Source: Anaerolineae bacterium
Lineage (GTDB): Bacteria; Chloroflexota; Anaerolineae; Anaerolineales; Villigracilaceae
Length of the DNA: 32,860 bases
Reading direction: 5' to 3'
NCBI GenBank assembly: GCA_018648605.1
Contig: JABGQU010000018.1
Span: 1-32,860 of the forward strand
Shown: positions 1,490-21,774 of the stretch, in pieces
Numbering within the stretch: position 1 is the stretch's first letter
Layout: each line of letters begins with the position of its first letter
Notes under the pieces: generated by a model
Told to the model about the DNA's origin: nothing
Seen by the model: only the letters and a program-made list of their open reading frames with translations
Database searches by the model: none
Translations under genes and position numbers: made by a program

Positions 1490-2092
1490 TTACTCAGCAG
1501 CGTATCTCCAAGTAGTCAACTTCATATCATGTGGGCCATCCCAGCCATCTTTCAAAAAAAGATACAATTTGTTTTGTAACTTACTAAACAATGCTTTGTA
1601 ACAAACATATATCTCATTGGTAGCAACAAGTTCGGTTTCCATATGTCTTGCATGAAGAGGAATAGGATATCTACCCCAATAAGTTATGGATTCATTAATC
1701 ATACCCAAAAATATTTTTTCATCAGAAGTCAGTTCTATTTCAGACACACCATTAAACAAAGTTTTCAACTTGTGATGCTTTAGCTTTTTGCCAAGTTCTC
1801 CATTTGCTACCAGAGAAGGCTCTTGAGCGACCAATAAACCTTTTATTAGATTTTCAATGCTCAATGCCGCCAGCAAGATGAATGTTCGTGACATAAACGA
1901 TTTTCGTGTAAGTCCATCTTTCAGAGGATGCGAAAAGGAACTTACCTGCTCCTCTCTATGTTCCCAAAGAAGCAACGCTGCATCATACAACTCTTGAGCA
2001 TAATCATCCCATTCAGTTGGAGATGCTAACATTACAAACTTTTGATTCTCAGAGAAATCAGCAGCAAACCCAACATTCCCCATTTCGCCCAT
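1490..2092 (-). CDS. HEPN-like domain protein
   Basis: This 200-residue, mostly helical protein has no signal peptide. Features typical of HEPN nucleotidyltransferase-partner/RNase folds are visible: a helix ALSIENLIKGLLVAQ (about 76-90) resembling the family's E-x-LLK helix, then KHHKLKTLF (about 105-113) like the usual GHdLkeLf segment, and RYPIPLH (141-147), which fits the Rx4-6H ribonuclease motif. The ATG at 2092 lies 3 nt beyond the stop of the flavoprotein gene and has AGGA at a good distance, so translation is probably coupled. The coding sequence is visibly richer in A+T than the flavoprotein gene, which hints at acquisition. A role as toxin or defence ribonuclease is inference; the family also includes catalytically inactive proteins. 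Confidence 0.6.
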   Translation of the reverse strand: MGEMGNVGFAADFSENQKFVMLASPTEWDDYAQELYDAALLLWEHREEQVSSFSHPLKDGLTRKSFMSRTFILLAALSIENLIKGLLVAQEPSLVANGELGKKLKHHKLKTLFNGVSEIELTSDEKIFLGMINESITYWGRYPIPLHARHMETELVATNEIYVCYKALFSKLQNKLYLFLKDGWDGPHDMKLTTWRYAAE

Positions 2093-2095
2093 GTT

Positions 2096-3733
2096 TTATT
2101 CCTGCCCTCTTGCAATCTTCTTTTGCAAGTGTTCGGGCCATTTTGAAATATCGTCTGATGGGTAAATTTCCATCGGAGGGCCGTTTTGGGTGAGCAAGTC
2201 TTTTGTTTTGCAATCAAGGATATTCGCAGCAGCGGCTAAACCAGAACGAGTTGCTCCGGCAACGCCATGACTGAGCGTACTTGCACCACACATATATAAA
2301 CCATCAATCTCAGTTCTGATCGGGAAAGCACCCGGCCCAACTTGCCTGCGACTCTTGGAGATCCCATACAGGTTGCCGCGTGTGGCATTGATGTAATGGT
2401 CGTTCGTCAGCGGGGTTGCCAAACTCCAATAGACGATATGTTTGCTAATGCCCGGCACATGCCGCTCAAGCTTTCTAAAAAGTTTTTCAGCCAACTCTTC
2501 TTTCTCAGCTTCGTAGCCGGCAGGGCGGTCGCCTTTTTTAGAATCAGACCATTTTTCAAAGGCTTCATAACCGACAAAAGCAAAGGCCTCGCAAGTATGA
2601 TGCCCGGAGTGCATCTTCGAGGGATCTTTGAGCGTCGTCACGGTCAAGAACATCATCGGTGGCTCGTCAGCGGTCAGGGTGTGGTCGGTCAGACCAAGCT
2701 TGTACTGCCCATCTACGTCTTCGTTGTCGTAGAACCAGAAGTTACCAGAATCCAGCCCGGCTTCGCGCAAATCCATATCCACTGCAAAGAACAAGCTCAG
2801 GGCTGAGACCGAATACGTCACTCTATCCAGTTTATTGACCAGCTTTTTGCTGAGGAATTCGCGTCCTATCAATTTGCCAAAGGTGACTTCCGGATCCGCA
2901 TTTGAGACGACGTTTTTCGCGTGGATAATTTCTCCGTCGGATAGCTTGATTCCAATCACTTTGCCGTCTTCGAGCAGGATCTTTTCTACAGGCGTTTTGA
3001 GACGGATCTCACCCCCGGCTTGCTTCAGCTCCCGAAGAAATGCGCGGGGAATAGCAAAAGCCCCGCCACGCGGAAAATATCCACCGTTGAAATAATGATG
3101 CAGAATGCCCGCCTGCACAAAAGCGGAGACTTCGGAGGGCGGCATGCCATGATCGCCAGCCTGCCCGCCGAGAATGCCCCGCAAAACGGGGTCGGTGATG
3201 AAATGCTCGATAAAATCCTGCCCGGAGCGAGTGGCCCAGCGCATAACAGATACTGCACCGCCCGCTGCCTTTACTGCACTAGTTGGGTTTTTGACCTTGC
3301 CCAAATTGCCGAGACCTGTAACCAGCTTTTCGGCCATGTCGATATAGCCATCAATACCCTCAGCATCATGCGGGAAATATTCCTTCAGCTTGGCAACAAG
3401 ATTTTCTTTGCCTTTGGGAAAATCATATTGTTTATCACCGATAACGATATGGTCGTAGCCATCCGGATTGAGTTCGCAAAATTCGATATGTGCAGAAACG
3501 CCCAAGCCTCTATAGGTGCGGTCGAGAGAACCGCCCTCTCCGATCCCGCCGATGTAGTGCACGCCCGGGCTAAAACGATACCCATTAAGAGTGAAGGAAT
3601 GCGTCCAGCCGCCGGGTTTGCCGTGCTGTTCGCAGACGAGCACTTTTTGCCCGGCTTGGGCGAGCGCGACAGCGGCGGTTAGTCCGCCTGCGCCTGAGCC
3701 GATAATGATGGTGTCGTATTCTTGAATTGACAT
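2096..3733 (-). CDS. Phytoene desaturase / retinol-saturase-like FAD oxidoreductase
   Basis: This FAD-dependent oxidoreductase of the CrtI/CRTISO/RetSat superfamily acts on polyene or isoprenoid substrates; the actual substrate cannot be read from sequence. The N-terminus has the dinucleotide-binding motif GSGAGGLTAA followed by CEQHGKPGG. The C-terminus has the FAD-closing segment GLYMCGASTLSHGVAGATRSG. I chose the ATG at 3733 (545 aa) over the ORF-track start because AGAGGA sits 7 nt before it and the dinucleotide motif then begins at about residue 10. It lies between a TIR gene and a HEPN-like gene on the same strand, 75 nt after the former and 3 nt before the latter. The long plus-strand ORFs opposite it are shadows. 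Confidence 0.88.
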   Translation of the reverse strand: MSIQEYDTIIIGSGAGGLTAAVALAQAGQKVLVCEQHGKPGGWTHSFTLNGYRFSPGVHYIGGIGEGGSLDRTYRGLGVSAHIEFCELNPDGYDHIVIGDKQYDFPKGKENLVAKLKEYFPHDAEGIDGYIDMAEKLVTGLGNLGKVKNPTSAVKAAGGAVSVMRWATRSGQDFIEHFITDPVLRGILGGQAGDHGMPPSEVSAFVQAGILHHYFNGGYFPRGGAFAIPRAFLRELKQAGGEIRLKTPVEKILLEDGKVIGIKLSDGEIIHAKNVVSNADPEVTFGKLIGREFLSKKLVNKLDRVTYSVSALSLFFAVDMDLREAGLDSGNFWFYDNEDVDGQYKLGLTDHTLTADEPPMMFLTVTTLKDPSKMHSGHHTCEAFAFVGYEAFEKWSDSKKGDRPAGYEAEKEELAEKLFRKLERHVPGISKHIVYWSLATPLTNDHYINATRGNLYGISKSRRQVGPGAFPIRTEIDGLYMCGASTLSHGVAGATRSGLAAAANILDCKTKDLLTQNGPPMEIYPSDDISKWPEHLQKKIARGQE

Positions 3734-3808
3734 TAATAATTCCTCTTTTAGTAGTATCAGTTTACGCAAATTTTCTCTATCACTTTACACGTTTTCACCC
3801 ATATTTTA

Positions 3809-4648
3809 TCAACTAGAACAAGATACCCACTCACCAAATTGAACACGATCAGGATCTATACCCATTAAAGTTTCAATATCGTGAGAAGAAGGGGTTAAAT
3901 CTTGTTTTAATTCAGGGGAAGGTAAAGAAAGGTTGTTTTTAAGTCGTTCACTTACATGAAATGTTAATCTCGAAATCGCTCTATTTGAATTTTCAGGAGA
4001 CGAGTCAACGTTTCCTTCTGCCAGACGGTGTGCTGTGTGATCCTTAATTCGAATGATAACAATACCATCTTGAATCTTGAAGGGTTTACCTATATCTAAT
4101 TGAAATTTCCACAAAAAATCATAGTGTTGATGTACAGGACCAATACCAACAGGTCCATAGTCAAACACGAGATTAAATCTTCTTAGTTTCGAGTTATTCT
4201 TATCGCCCAAAGGTTTTTTATGAAAAACGGCTTCACCTTTGATAGGGAATGCTATTAATCTGTCTTTTTCCTTACGGTCTATAACACTTGCTAAACGTTT
4301 ATAAAATCTCTCAGGAGGCATTGCTCCGGCTTTTACATCCACATATTGAATATCCCCCAAAGAGAACCAGTTTTCACCTTTCAACAAAAGCGGAAAGAAA
4401 GGTTTTCGCCGTTTCTCGGCATGAATTCTTTCACGTCCCACCCATTGCGACTCCGCGGCGTTCTTCGACATCACGACAACGTAGGCATCGCAAATATCAA
4501 TAGCTTTTTCGATTTCTTCTGGCCATTTATCGCCATAATCAATACGGTGGTCAATCCAAACATCAAAACCCTCATCAATGAGCTTCTTTTCGAGTTTTTC
4601 GACGTATTTTTTATCTTTGTGGCTGTAGCTAATGAAGATGTGGCCCAT
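3809..4648 (-). CDS. TIR-domain protein with uncharacterised C-terminal domain
   Basis: Residues 1-125 form a bacterial TIR domain: strand A box FISYSHKD, the GFDVWID segment, and SQWVGRE, where the Glu at about 73 matches the catalytic Glu of NAD+-consuming TIR domains (SxWxxxE). Residues 130-279 form a beta-rich region I do not recognise, with no transmembrane segment or known sensor motif. Known TIR proteins with accessory domains act in anti-phage NAD+ depletion or signalling, so this is a candidate defence effector, by inference. The gene is A+T-rich compared with its neighbours. A perfect TATAAT lies at 4686-4691 on the minus strand, 37 nt upstream of the ATG, so it probably starts its own transcript. 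The next gene begins 75 nt downstream. Confidence 0.85.
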   Translation of the reverse strand: MGHIFISYSHKDKKYVEKLEKKLIDEGFDVWIDHRIDYGDKWPEEIEKAIDICDAYVVVMSKNAAESQWVGRERIHAEKRRKPFFPLLLKGENWFSLGDIQYVDVKAGAMPPERFYKRLASVIDRKEKDRLIAFPIKGEAVFHKKPLGDKNNSKLRRFNLVFDYGPVGIGPVHQHYDFLWKFQLDIGKPFKIQDGIVIIRIKDHTAHRLAEGNVDSSPENSNRAISRLTFHVSERLKNNLSLPSPELKQDLTPSSHDIETLMGIDPDRVQFGEWVSCSS

Positions 4649-4779
4649 ATGACTTTCCCGATTTTTTCGTTACCAGAATGGCGCAATTATAAAGGATAAA
4701 TAAAACGAAATGCGTATACCGGCTAAATGAATTTCACTTTGGTACAATCATTCAAACCAAAACATAAAGGAGCCTTCCT

Positions 4780-5988
4780 ATGCAAACCAATAAATCACGC
4801 AACTTCCTTTTCATCATGTTCGGCGCATTATATTTCGTTCAAGGTGTCATTCAGGCCTACCAACTCAACTTCTTCAAGCCTCATCTGGACGGAGTCGGCA
4901 TCGAAGCAGACCGCATCGCAACGCTGGCGGGGCTGGCATTAGTCCCCTTTATGCTCAAATGGCTCTTTGGTATCCTCAGCGACCGCGTCAATCTCTTTGG
5001 CAAAGGCTACAGGATGCCCTATATGATCATAGGGATAATCCTCTCCGCCTTTGCCTTTGGTTCTGCTTTTTGGATCAATCCCGCCGATCAATTTGGCGCA
5101 ATGACAGTCATTATTCTTGTGGGCGTTTCAGCCATGACTTTATTTGACGCAACTGCTGATGCCCTTGCTGTAGATATAACCACACCAGAAGATCATGGTC
5201 TCGTACAAAGCGCGATGACAGGCGGCAGAGCAGCCGGTTTTATTATTCTCTCGGCTGTTTTCGGTCTCGTCGCTGCACGTTATGGATACTCGGCGATCTT
5301 TCTCGTTATGGGTGTCATTATTTTATTCCCACTCATTATGGTTTTCCAAGTCAAAGAACCTGAACAACGCGCCCAGCGTGAAAAATTTGAATGGGGTGCC
5401 TTCAAACAACTCATCCGCCCCAATTATTTGGTTTATATCCTCTTCATCGTCTTGGCATGGACAACTTTCCAAGGCATAGATGGCTTAGTTACACTTTATA
5501 TGAGCAGCGAGCTAAAGATCGGCCCCGAACTCATCGGACGATATGGCATGTTCAAAGGCTTGGGGATGGTCATCGGCGCGCTCATTTTAGGCTGGTCAAT
5601 CAATAAAATAGGTATCAAAAATGCGGCACTCAGCACTGTCTCGATGGTCACCGTAGGTGGGTTTATCTTCAGCAAAACCACTAATCTTAACGCAATCCTG
5701 ATCGCTGCCGTTCTCTGGGGCGTTGTGGTCGCCTTTCATTGGACCGTCTACGCAACCTACTCCATGGGCATCACCGACAAACGCATCGCGGGCTCGATGT
5801 TTGCCATCCTGATGACAGTCGGCAATATCGGCATCGGTGCAGGCGAAGCTCTCGCCACTCGCTTTGTGGACGACCTCGGCTTCTCCGGCGTTTTCAGCAC
5901 AATTGCCCTCATCAATCTGGTACTCATTCCTATCCTCTTCTTTGCTCTACGCGGGCTTCAAAAAGAAAGAGAGAAATTTGCTGGATAA
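4780..5988 (+). CDS. MFS transporter (12 TM)
   Basis: This 402-residue integral membrane protein of the major facilitator superfamily has about 12 hydrophobic segments. The loop 2-3 signature is present as GILSDRVNLFGKGYRMPY, and a second-half counterpart follows LILGWSIN. It exports or imports an unknown small solute by proton coupling. The ATG at 4780 is supported by AAAGGAG about 9 nt upstream; an extended -10-like TGGTACAAT occurs at about 4740-4748. It is transcribed divergently from the TIR gene. Two TGCRTTGCA hairpins lie between it and the peptidase gene, the second with a T-run. The substrate cannot be inferred. Confidence 0.88.
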   Translation: MQTNKSRNFLFIMFGALYFVQGVIQAYQLNFFKPHLDGVGIEADRIATLAGLALVPFMLKWLFGILSDRVNLFGKGYRMPYMIIGIILSAFAFGSAFWINPADQFGAMTVIILVGVSAMTLFDATADALAVDITTPEDHGLVQSAMTGGRAAGFIILSAVFGLVAARYGYSAIFLVMGVIILFPLIMVFQVKEPEQRAQREKFEWGAFKQLIRPNYLVYILFIVLAWTTFQGIDGLVTLYMSSELKIGPELIGRYGMFKGLGMVIGALILGWSINKIGIKNAALSTVSMVTVGGFIFSKTTNLNAILIAAVLWGVVVAFHWTVYATYSMGITDKRIAGSMFAILMTVGNIGIGAGEALATRFVDDLGFSGVFSTIALINLVLIPILFFALRGLQKEREKFAG

Positions 5989-18906: not shown

Positions 18907-19737
18907 ATGACCTGGAACCTACACACAACACATATTCAAGACGGCGACCTTGTCCTGCTAGTCGGGCAGCGCCACAAGCATTACATCATCACACTCAAAG
19001 CCGGCATGGATTTTCAAACCCATCGCGGCGTTTTGAAGCACGATGAGATCATTGGTCAGCTCTGGGGGACGAAGCTGCAAAGCCACATGGGCAACCCGTT
19101 TTACGTTTTTCAACCTTCGCTAGCGGATGTGCTGCGGGAGATGCCGCGCAATACGCAAATCCTATACCCGAAGGATATTGGATTCATCTTCATTACAACG
19201 GGAGTTGGCCCCGGATCGCGCGTGCTTGAAGCGGGCACCGGTTCAGGATCATTGACCACAGCCCTGGCATATTCCGTTGGTGATACTGGACAAGTTTACT
19301 CGTACGAAGTGCGTAAACCCATGCAAAAACTTGCCCAGAAAAACCTGAAAAGATTGGGTCTACAGGAACGCGTGGATTTCAAGCTACGTGATATTGAAGA
19401 AGGCTTCGACGAAACCGATATAGACATGCTCTTTCTCGACGTGCAAGCCCCGCACGATTATATTCCCCAAGCCCGCGCAGCTATCAGACCAGGCGGTTTT
19501 TTCGCCAGCCTTGTACCGACTTTTAATCAGGTTGAAAAACTCCTGCTCGCGCTCAATCAGCATAATTTTGCCTTTATAGAGACTTGCGAGATCATGCTGC
19601 GCTACTACAAACCGCAACCCGCACGTCTGCGCCCAACAGATCGTATGATCGCCCATACAGGCTTCTTGGTCTTTGGACGCCGCGTAGAAGTTTCCGAAAC
19701 ACCAGATGAGACACCGCCCACGCAGGAGGAAATATGA
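18907..19737 (+). CDS. trmI: tRNA (adenine(58)-N1)-methyltransferase TrmI
   Basis: This SAM-dependent enzyme methylates N1 of A58 in the tRNA T-loop. Residues 1-70 form the small beta domain (GDLVLLVGQRHKHYIITL). The catalytic Rossmann fold follows, with SAM motif VLEAGTGSGSLTTALA, the acidic ribose-binding EVRK, and the substrate motif MLFLDVQAPHDYI. The 276-aa length fits bacterial and archaeal TrmI. TAAGAT lies 6 nt before the ATG and no Shine-Dalgarno is seen, so it may be both translated from the lysE transcript and transcribed as a leaderless mRNA. It overlaps the lipoprotein gene by 4 nt. Confidence 0.93.
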   Translation: MTWNLHTTHIQDGDLVLLVGQRHKHYIITLKAGMDFQTHRGVLKHDEIIGQLWGTKLQSHMGNPFYVFQPSLADVLREMPRNTQILYPKDIGFIFITTGVGPGSRVLEAGTGSGSLTTALAYSVGDTGQVYSYEVRKPMQKLAQKNLKRLGLQERVDFKLRDIEEGFDETDIDMLFLDVQAPHDYIPQARAAIRPGGFFASLVPTFNQVEKLLLALNQHNFAFIETCEIMLRYYKPQPARLRPTDRMIAHTGFLVFGRRVEVSETPDETPPTQEEI

Positions 19738-21164: not shown

Positions 21165-21774
21165 GATCAAGAACATCACTCAAGCCCAAATCGCCGAGTA
21201 TTTGCGGCGCAGCTATCACGAGAGCGATCTTCCAGCTACCGACGGGTATATTCGTCGTCCACCTAAAGGGGACAAAAAATCGCTAAAATGCGCGGCTGTA
21301 CTGATCCCCTTAACCTTCTACCAAGACGAGTGGCATCTGCTATACACGCGTCGTACCAATACGCTCAACGATCACAGCGGGCAAGTCTCCTTCCCCGGCG
21401 GGCAATGCGACCTCGAAGATGAAACGCACGAGAGAACCGCGTTGCGTGAAGCCCAAGAAGAGATCGGGCTAAAGCCACAAGATGTAGAGATATTGGGAAA
21501 GATCAACGAAGTCGTGACAGTCACGCATTATGAGATCACACCCGTTGTCGGTGTTTTCCAATCTCCATATTCTTTTTTTGTTTCTACAATTGAAGTCGGC
21601 CGTGTTTTTACAATGCCGCTAAACTGGCTGGCAAACCCACGCCATTATTGGCAATTTCAGCACCCCAAAGCCAATCATCCCACCATCGCCTATCACCCTT
21701 TCGACGGGGAATTACTTTGGGGCGCGACGGCACGCATCACACTAAATTTCTTAAAAATAATCGAGCTTATTTAA
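21160..21774 (+). CDS. NUDIX hydrolase (CoA-pyrophosphatase-like), probable ATT start
   Basis: This NUDIX hydrolase cleaves a nucleoside-diphosphate derivative, most likely CoA or a related compound, judged by the upstream LNDHSGQVSFPGGQ segment typical of the CoAse subgroup. The Nudix box is GGQCDLEDETHERTALREAQEEIG (pattern Gx5Ex7REUxEExGU with D-rich spacing). The ORF track begins at a TTG inside the fold (21202). The reading frame is open back to 21109 but has no ATG or GTG. GAGGAGAAA sits directly before ATT at 21160, which overlaps the upstream stop TAA, so I infer initiation at ATT and an N-terminus xKIKNITQAQIAEYL. The gene overlaps the convergent ribD-like gene by 8 nt. Confidence 0.85.
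   Translation: MKIKNITQAQIAEYLRRSYHESDLPATDGYIRRPPKGDKKSLKCAAVLIPLTFYQDEWHLLYTRRTNTLNDHSGQVSFPGGQCDLEDETHERTALREAQEEIGLKPQDVEILGKINEVVTVTHYEITPVVGVFQSPYSFFVSTIEVGRVFTMPLNWLANPRHYWQFQHPKANHPTIAYHPFDGELLWGATARITLNFLKIIELI

Follow-up and report, generated by a model that had tools for sequence, protein, structure and literature searches.

The locus examined here lies in a 32,860-nucleotide window of a groundwater-type Chloroflexota genome and carries a gene whose product, TIR-X, combines an N-terminal TIR domain with a C-terminal part that we call X (Table 1). The gene order AmOx, MFS and M20 is kept in three congeners, and the first two genes also occur as syntenic neighbours in genomes without a TIR gene between them. 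In the congener G770 the AmOx-MFS gap measures ~0.2 kb with no gene inside, and alignment of this empty site brackets the TIR-X gene, while the same site holds a 217-aa membrane protein in G771 and a 119-aa ORF in G769. The TIR-X gene is an accessory insertion between two conserved genes, and since the site is empty or otherwise filled in congeners, it constitutes a small hotspot of accessory cargo. In keeping with the A+T richness noted in the initial annotation, the GC content of the gene is 0.388 (0.42 for the TIR part and 0.36 for the X part) against 0.44-0.53 for most neighbours. That annotation had also credited the gene with a TATAAT box of its own; the hexamer is present (4691-4686), yet its reading as a promoter is weak because no bipartite sigma-70 site scores around it, with no hexamer pair passing the scan in the TIR-X upstream region (shuffles average 2.9). 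On the other side of AmOx lies a 200-aa gene of low GC (0.38; 1490-2092, minus strand) that is absent from the fetched congener loci, has no Pfam, PADLOC or NCBIfam match and, by eye, is perhaps a HEPN-like accessory gene.

Table 1. Features of the TIR-X locus and of the loci compared with it; plain coordinates refer to the window.
Feature	Position	Strand	Remarks
AmOx, left neighbour, CrtI/carotenoid-isomerase-like FAD oxidoreductase	2096..3733	-	73-92% identical in 7 congeners
AmOx-MFS intergenic cargo site	3734-4779		compared loci L077, L078, L079, L076
TIR-X gene	3809..4648	-	279 aa, one ORF, ATG start; GC 0.388
X domain, residues 156-278	3815..4183	-	35% identity, 124 aa, to N-terminal half of G836 protein
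End of TIR region and linker, residues 109-155	4184..4324	-	likeness to TIR relatives extends to ~residue 129
TIR_2 domain, residues 4-108	4325..4639	-	Pfam PF13676, E 2.1e-25
Codon of predicted catalytic Glu E73 (W69-x3-E73)	4430..4432	-	invariant, 49/49 aligned relatives
TATAAT hexamer	4686..4691	-	38 bp upstream of ATG; without scoring -35
MFS transporter, right neighbour	4780..5988	+	85-89% identical, adjoining AmOx in 3 congeners
Divergent TIR-superfamily domain, residues 126-279 of G836 protein	gene L088:2307-3146		hhalign against TIR profile
Divergent TIR-like gene, Acidobacteria MAG	L089:6004-6906		without X; different, beta-rich-looking C-terminus

The N-terminal domain of TIR-X belongs to Pfam TIR_2, whose model scores 90 bits against a gathering cut-off of 28, and the TIR and ThsB_TIR models also exceed their own cut-offs. 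The alphaC motif reads QWVGRE and presents the WxxxE arrangement with the catalytic Glu of NADase-type TIR domains (W69-x3-E73). Across the aligned relatives the Glu is kept in 49 of 49 and the Trp and Glu jointly in 31, so that the catalytic Glu reported at first inspection is borne out both by its conservation and by the domain assignment (E 2.1e-25). From established knowledge plus inference, we take E73 to be the equivalent of the SARM1 E642-type Glu; a conserved Glu alone is not proof of NADase activity, and TIR-X is best described as a putative NADase.

The C-terminal part, initially described as unrecognised, has kept that status in every library: residues 129-279 give no Pfam match even up to an E value of 10, NCBIfam, PADLOC, PHROGs and PDB sequences yield no match to it, all PADLOC matches of TIR-X are confined to residues 1-95, and none of these family searches maps it to a housekeeping family. 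When 152 genomes of the same bacterial family were searched in full, by contrast, a second copy of X came up (G836:C117, E 5.6e-20) in a Chloroflexota MAG of a different genus, with 35% identity over 124 residues (BLASTP) and the motifs DxxAHxLAxG and IDxxRVxxxxxWVS in common. The alignment shows that the C-terminal part of TIR-X is a discrete, real domain (~residues 156-278), and the TIR-X gene, part of whose product is thus matched at 35% identity in a second genome, is more than a chance product. The AlphaFold2 models of TIR-X and of the G836 protein are too poor to yield the fold of X (pLDDT 41 and 44) and have no Foldseek match at E <= 0.001; both predict, at low confidence, a beta-beta-beta-alpha-alpha order for X.

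The G836 locus (contig JACRBH010000178.1 of the genome_contigs collection; L065/L088) encodes a 279-aa protein in which X is N-terminal (residues 3-124) and is followed by a half that has no Pfam match and lies below Pfam detection. This second half is ~17% identical to TIR_2 and has a 48%-identical relative, L089, in an Acidobacteria MAG. Comparison by hhalign of a profile of these two sequences with the 49-sequence TIR profile aligned 76 columns that run from betaA (VFIS) as far as the alphaC Glu; the probability was 69%, the E value 4.5e-5 and the score 32.0, whereas 100 column shuffles reached at most 19.6 and the reversed alignment 16.8. The WIEQE Glu of the G836 protein aligns with E73 (WIEQE over WVGRE), and we assign the second half as a divergent TIR-superfamily domain. 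In the same comparison X itself scored 12.7 against the TIR profile, inside the shuffle range, and the idea that X is TIR-like was rejected. The TIR-like domain of L088 and L089 reads VFISCGQ ... RASVWIEQEVAIA and is missed by Pfam; the L089 gene adjoins a gene for an Mrr_cat restriction endonuclease. A Paenarthrobacter plasmid protein that matched the G836 protein (E 2e-3) has none of the TIR-like motifs, and the match was discarded as chance.

The main new result is that X is joined to a TIR-superfamily domain in both of its known occurrences (2/2) and in opposite order, first in the G836 protein and last in TIR-X, for which reason we call it a TIR partner module. The two proteins thus share X and a TIR-superfamily partner and differ in domain order and in the Pfam-invisible TIR of the G836 protein; this permuted fusion strengthens the case for a TIR effector with an unrecognised C-terminal domain. 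X is probably a new and rare on/off module for TIR enzymes, and the statement that it always accompanies a TIR rests on n = 2 sequences. About 1,000 genomes were searched overall. No further convincing copies were found in 396 genomes of the class, in 400 of the phylum (the samples overlap) or in 247 chosen around the Acidobacteria MAG G868, nor did X occur apart from a TIR-superfamily partner in any of these sets or in the 152 genomes of the family. It is absent from all sampled congeners, and searches of the genome_contigs, viral_contigs, phages and plasmids collections for close relatives of full-length TIR-X or of X returned nothing. Two matches from the class search (L004 and L005, E 0.007-0.008) were set aside as chance, their matching frames overlapping unrelated long ORFs.

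The TIR part itself belongs to a lineage with patchy distribution in the bacterial family, whose nearest members are 40-64% identical to it. About a dozen of the 20 nearest relatives carry a transmembrane segment and an FGE-sulfatase tail, Pfam-confirmed for L006 and L007 and judged by sequence reading for the remainder, and this TIR-transmembrane-FGE-sulfatase (C-type-lectin-fold) layout recurs in L006, L007, L092-L097, L101, L104 and L106. The TIR domains of L006 (470 aa) and L007 (442 aa) are 56% and 43% identical to that of TIR-X and share the WVxxE Glu, but their tails (a transmembrane segment followed by PF03781) predict membrane anchoring, whereas TIR-X is predicted to be soluble and carries X in place of an FGE-sulfatase domain. 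Other relatives bear unrelated tails; L099 (G758:C527), of the same lineage, ends in what read as ricin-B-like repeats. The closest TIR of all, 64% identical, is found in the congener G772, where it too neighbours AmOx, separated from it by a gene that reads as REP/Y1-type transposase-like (no Pfam match). Its C-terminus is unrelated to X: a resemblance in strand and helix rhythm seen by eye found no support in profile comparison (hhalign E 0.67). The C-terminus of the TIR lineage is modular, with swappable tails.

Were X simply a soluble replacement for the usual transmembrane and FGE-sulfatase tail, TIR-X could act in cell-physiology or envelope signalling outside defence, as the prevalence of such tails among its nearest relatives and the housekeeping neighbourhood of the gene would suggest. 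We consider this unlikely, however, as low GC, accessory status and exchange of cargo are typical features of conflict genes and as TIR-CLec/FGE proteins have themselves been proposed to sense antigens in conflict systems (PMC10907252). The FGE/CLec relatives recall the DGR-diversified putative antigen sensors that the same paper describes in multicellular bacteria, among which are TIR-domain proteins; this provides context for the TIR lineage and is not evidence on X.

The initial annotation had envisaged a single-gene or two-gene anti-phage system and proposed defence-island enrichment as a check. By PADLOC, the 32.9-kb window contains no credible defence genes besides TIR-X, its remaining genes being housekeeping ones (transporters, glycosyltransferases, lipid enzymes, DNA alkylation repair and a tRNA methyltransferase); two further PADLOC calls, mad2 (18907-19737, plus strand) and PDC-S07 (21202-21774, plus strand), were rejected as false positives, the proteins being a GCD14/TrmI tRNA methyltransferase and a NUDIX hydrolase, respectively. 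No defence genes are evident on the 11.4-kb G836 contig either, so that neither X locus falls in a defence island, two loci being too few to decide the matter. The single-gene alternative is supported by the anatomy of the locus, where no conserved partner gene is seen; the syntenic neighbours AmOx and MFS are also present in genomes that lack the TIR gene.

Proteins that combine sensing with a signalling TIR are a known layout, and TIR-X could, in the manner of Thoeris ThsB, make a nucleotide signal that acts on an effector whose gene lies in another part of the genome, with X as the infection sensor. The ThsB_TIR Pfam score and the matches of PADLOC ThsB models to the TIR part are consistent with such a role, but unrelated TIR defence models match TIR-X equally well, so the ThsB match is that of a generic TIR, and no ThsA-like or other nucleotide-gated effector is present among the window genes tested, which makes this reading distinctly unlikely. 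The genes beside TIR-X are AmOx, MFS and M20, with no ThsA-type effector or PADLOC partner among those tested. Furthermore, the ThsB and ThcB4 models match the TIR domain only weakly, their C-termini are not shared with TIR-X, and the NCBIfam equivalog for ThcB4 (Thoeris type III) reaches 31.4 bits against a cut-off of 220. ThsB has been described as both sensor and signal maker (PMC11204291). TIR-SAVED, CARF-TIR Cat1 and the TIR-APAZ/Ago partners resemble TIR-X in layout, in that a sensor or regulatory module is joined to a TIR NADase, as in the fusion reported for Cat1 (PMC12162218); the PADLOC SAVED_TIR and Aga_TIR models, however, match only TIR residues of TIR-X, and X corresponds to none of the known sensor domains of TIR-SAVED, TIR-CARF or Aga-TIR. 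DUF4062 'Swarozyc' proteins are divergent TIR-like NADases coupled to a sensing mode (PMC13174449), but DUF4062 has no match in TIR-X or the G836 protein and only sub-threshold ones in the TIRs of relatives.

X might instead bind a substrate or cofactor, or serve dimerisation, working constitutively with TIR catalysis in housekeeping NAD metabolism, and the G836 gene does follow a class-V aminotransferase gene, in line with it and at a distance of 24 bp; we regard this as improbable because X is very rare, patchy and missing from all sampled congeners, and housekeeping enzymes are not so distributed. That X is non-functional, being either what is left of a broken TIR-FGE gene or a random extension of one, as its shortness and low GC next to the longer FGE tails of the closest TIR relatives could suggest, is very improbable and largely refuted by the G836 homologue, X being unlike FGE and kept with its motifs at 35% identity over 124 aa in a different protein of another genus.

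From what is established for TIR effectors, TIR-X is likely to act by NAD+ cleavage following release of inhibition or oligomerisation, and phage infection is the commonest cue for the bacterial effectors. We favour, at a probability of about one half, a reading in which TIR-X is a single-gene accessory TIR NADase effector regulated by X, with phage infection as the most likely cue. No part of the protein other than X is a candidate for the regulatory role. Acting as a sensor, or as an oligomerisation or recruitment domain, X would hold the TIR off until the cue causes it to switch the TIR on; the activated domain would then, through E73, cleave NAD+ or make an ADP-ribose-derived product, and NAD+ depletion would lead to abortive infection. 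The computations show the TIR domain with its invariant Glu, the discrete X domain recurring next to a second, divergent TIR-like domain in the opposite order, and the accessory insertion of the gene; NADase activity, regulation by X and phage as the cue are what we infer, an anti-phage role being plausible by analogy with other members of the TIR family. The observation first made on this gene thus stands, and its interpretation is supported in part, for the effector with an unrecognised domain and for the single-gene arrangement. More tentatively, X may represent an undescribed class of sensor or gating domain, able to sit at either end of a TIR, that responds to a phage or stress ligand unused by known TIR systems.

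TIR enzymes are common to bacterial, plant and animal immunity, and the activating module differs among them. X is a small module outside every family library searched, and the G836 protein shows that divergent TIR-like domains bearing the catalytic Glu can escape Pfam. The permuted fusion of X to two very different TIR domains would make a regulatory role testable in one small protein.
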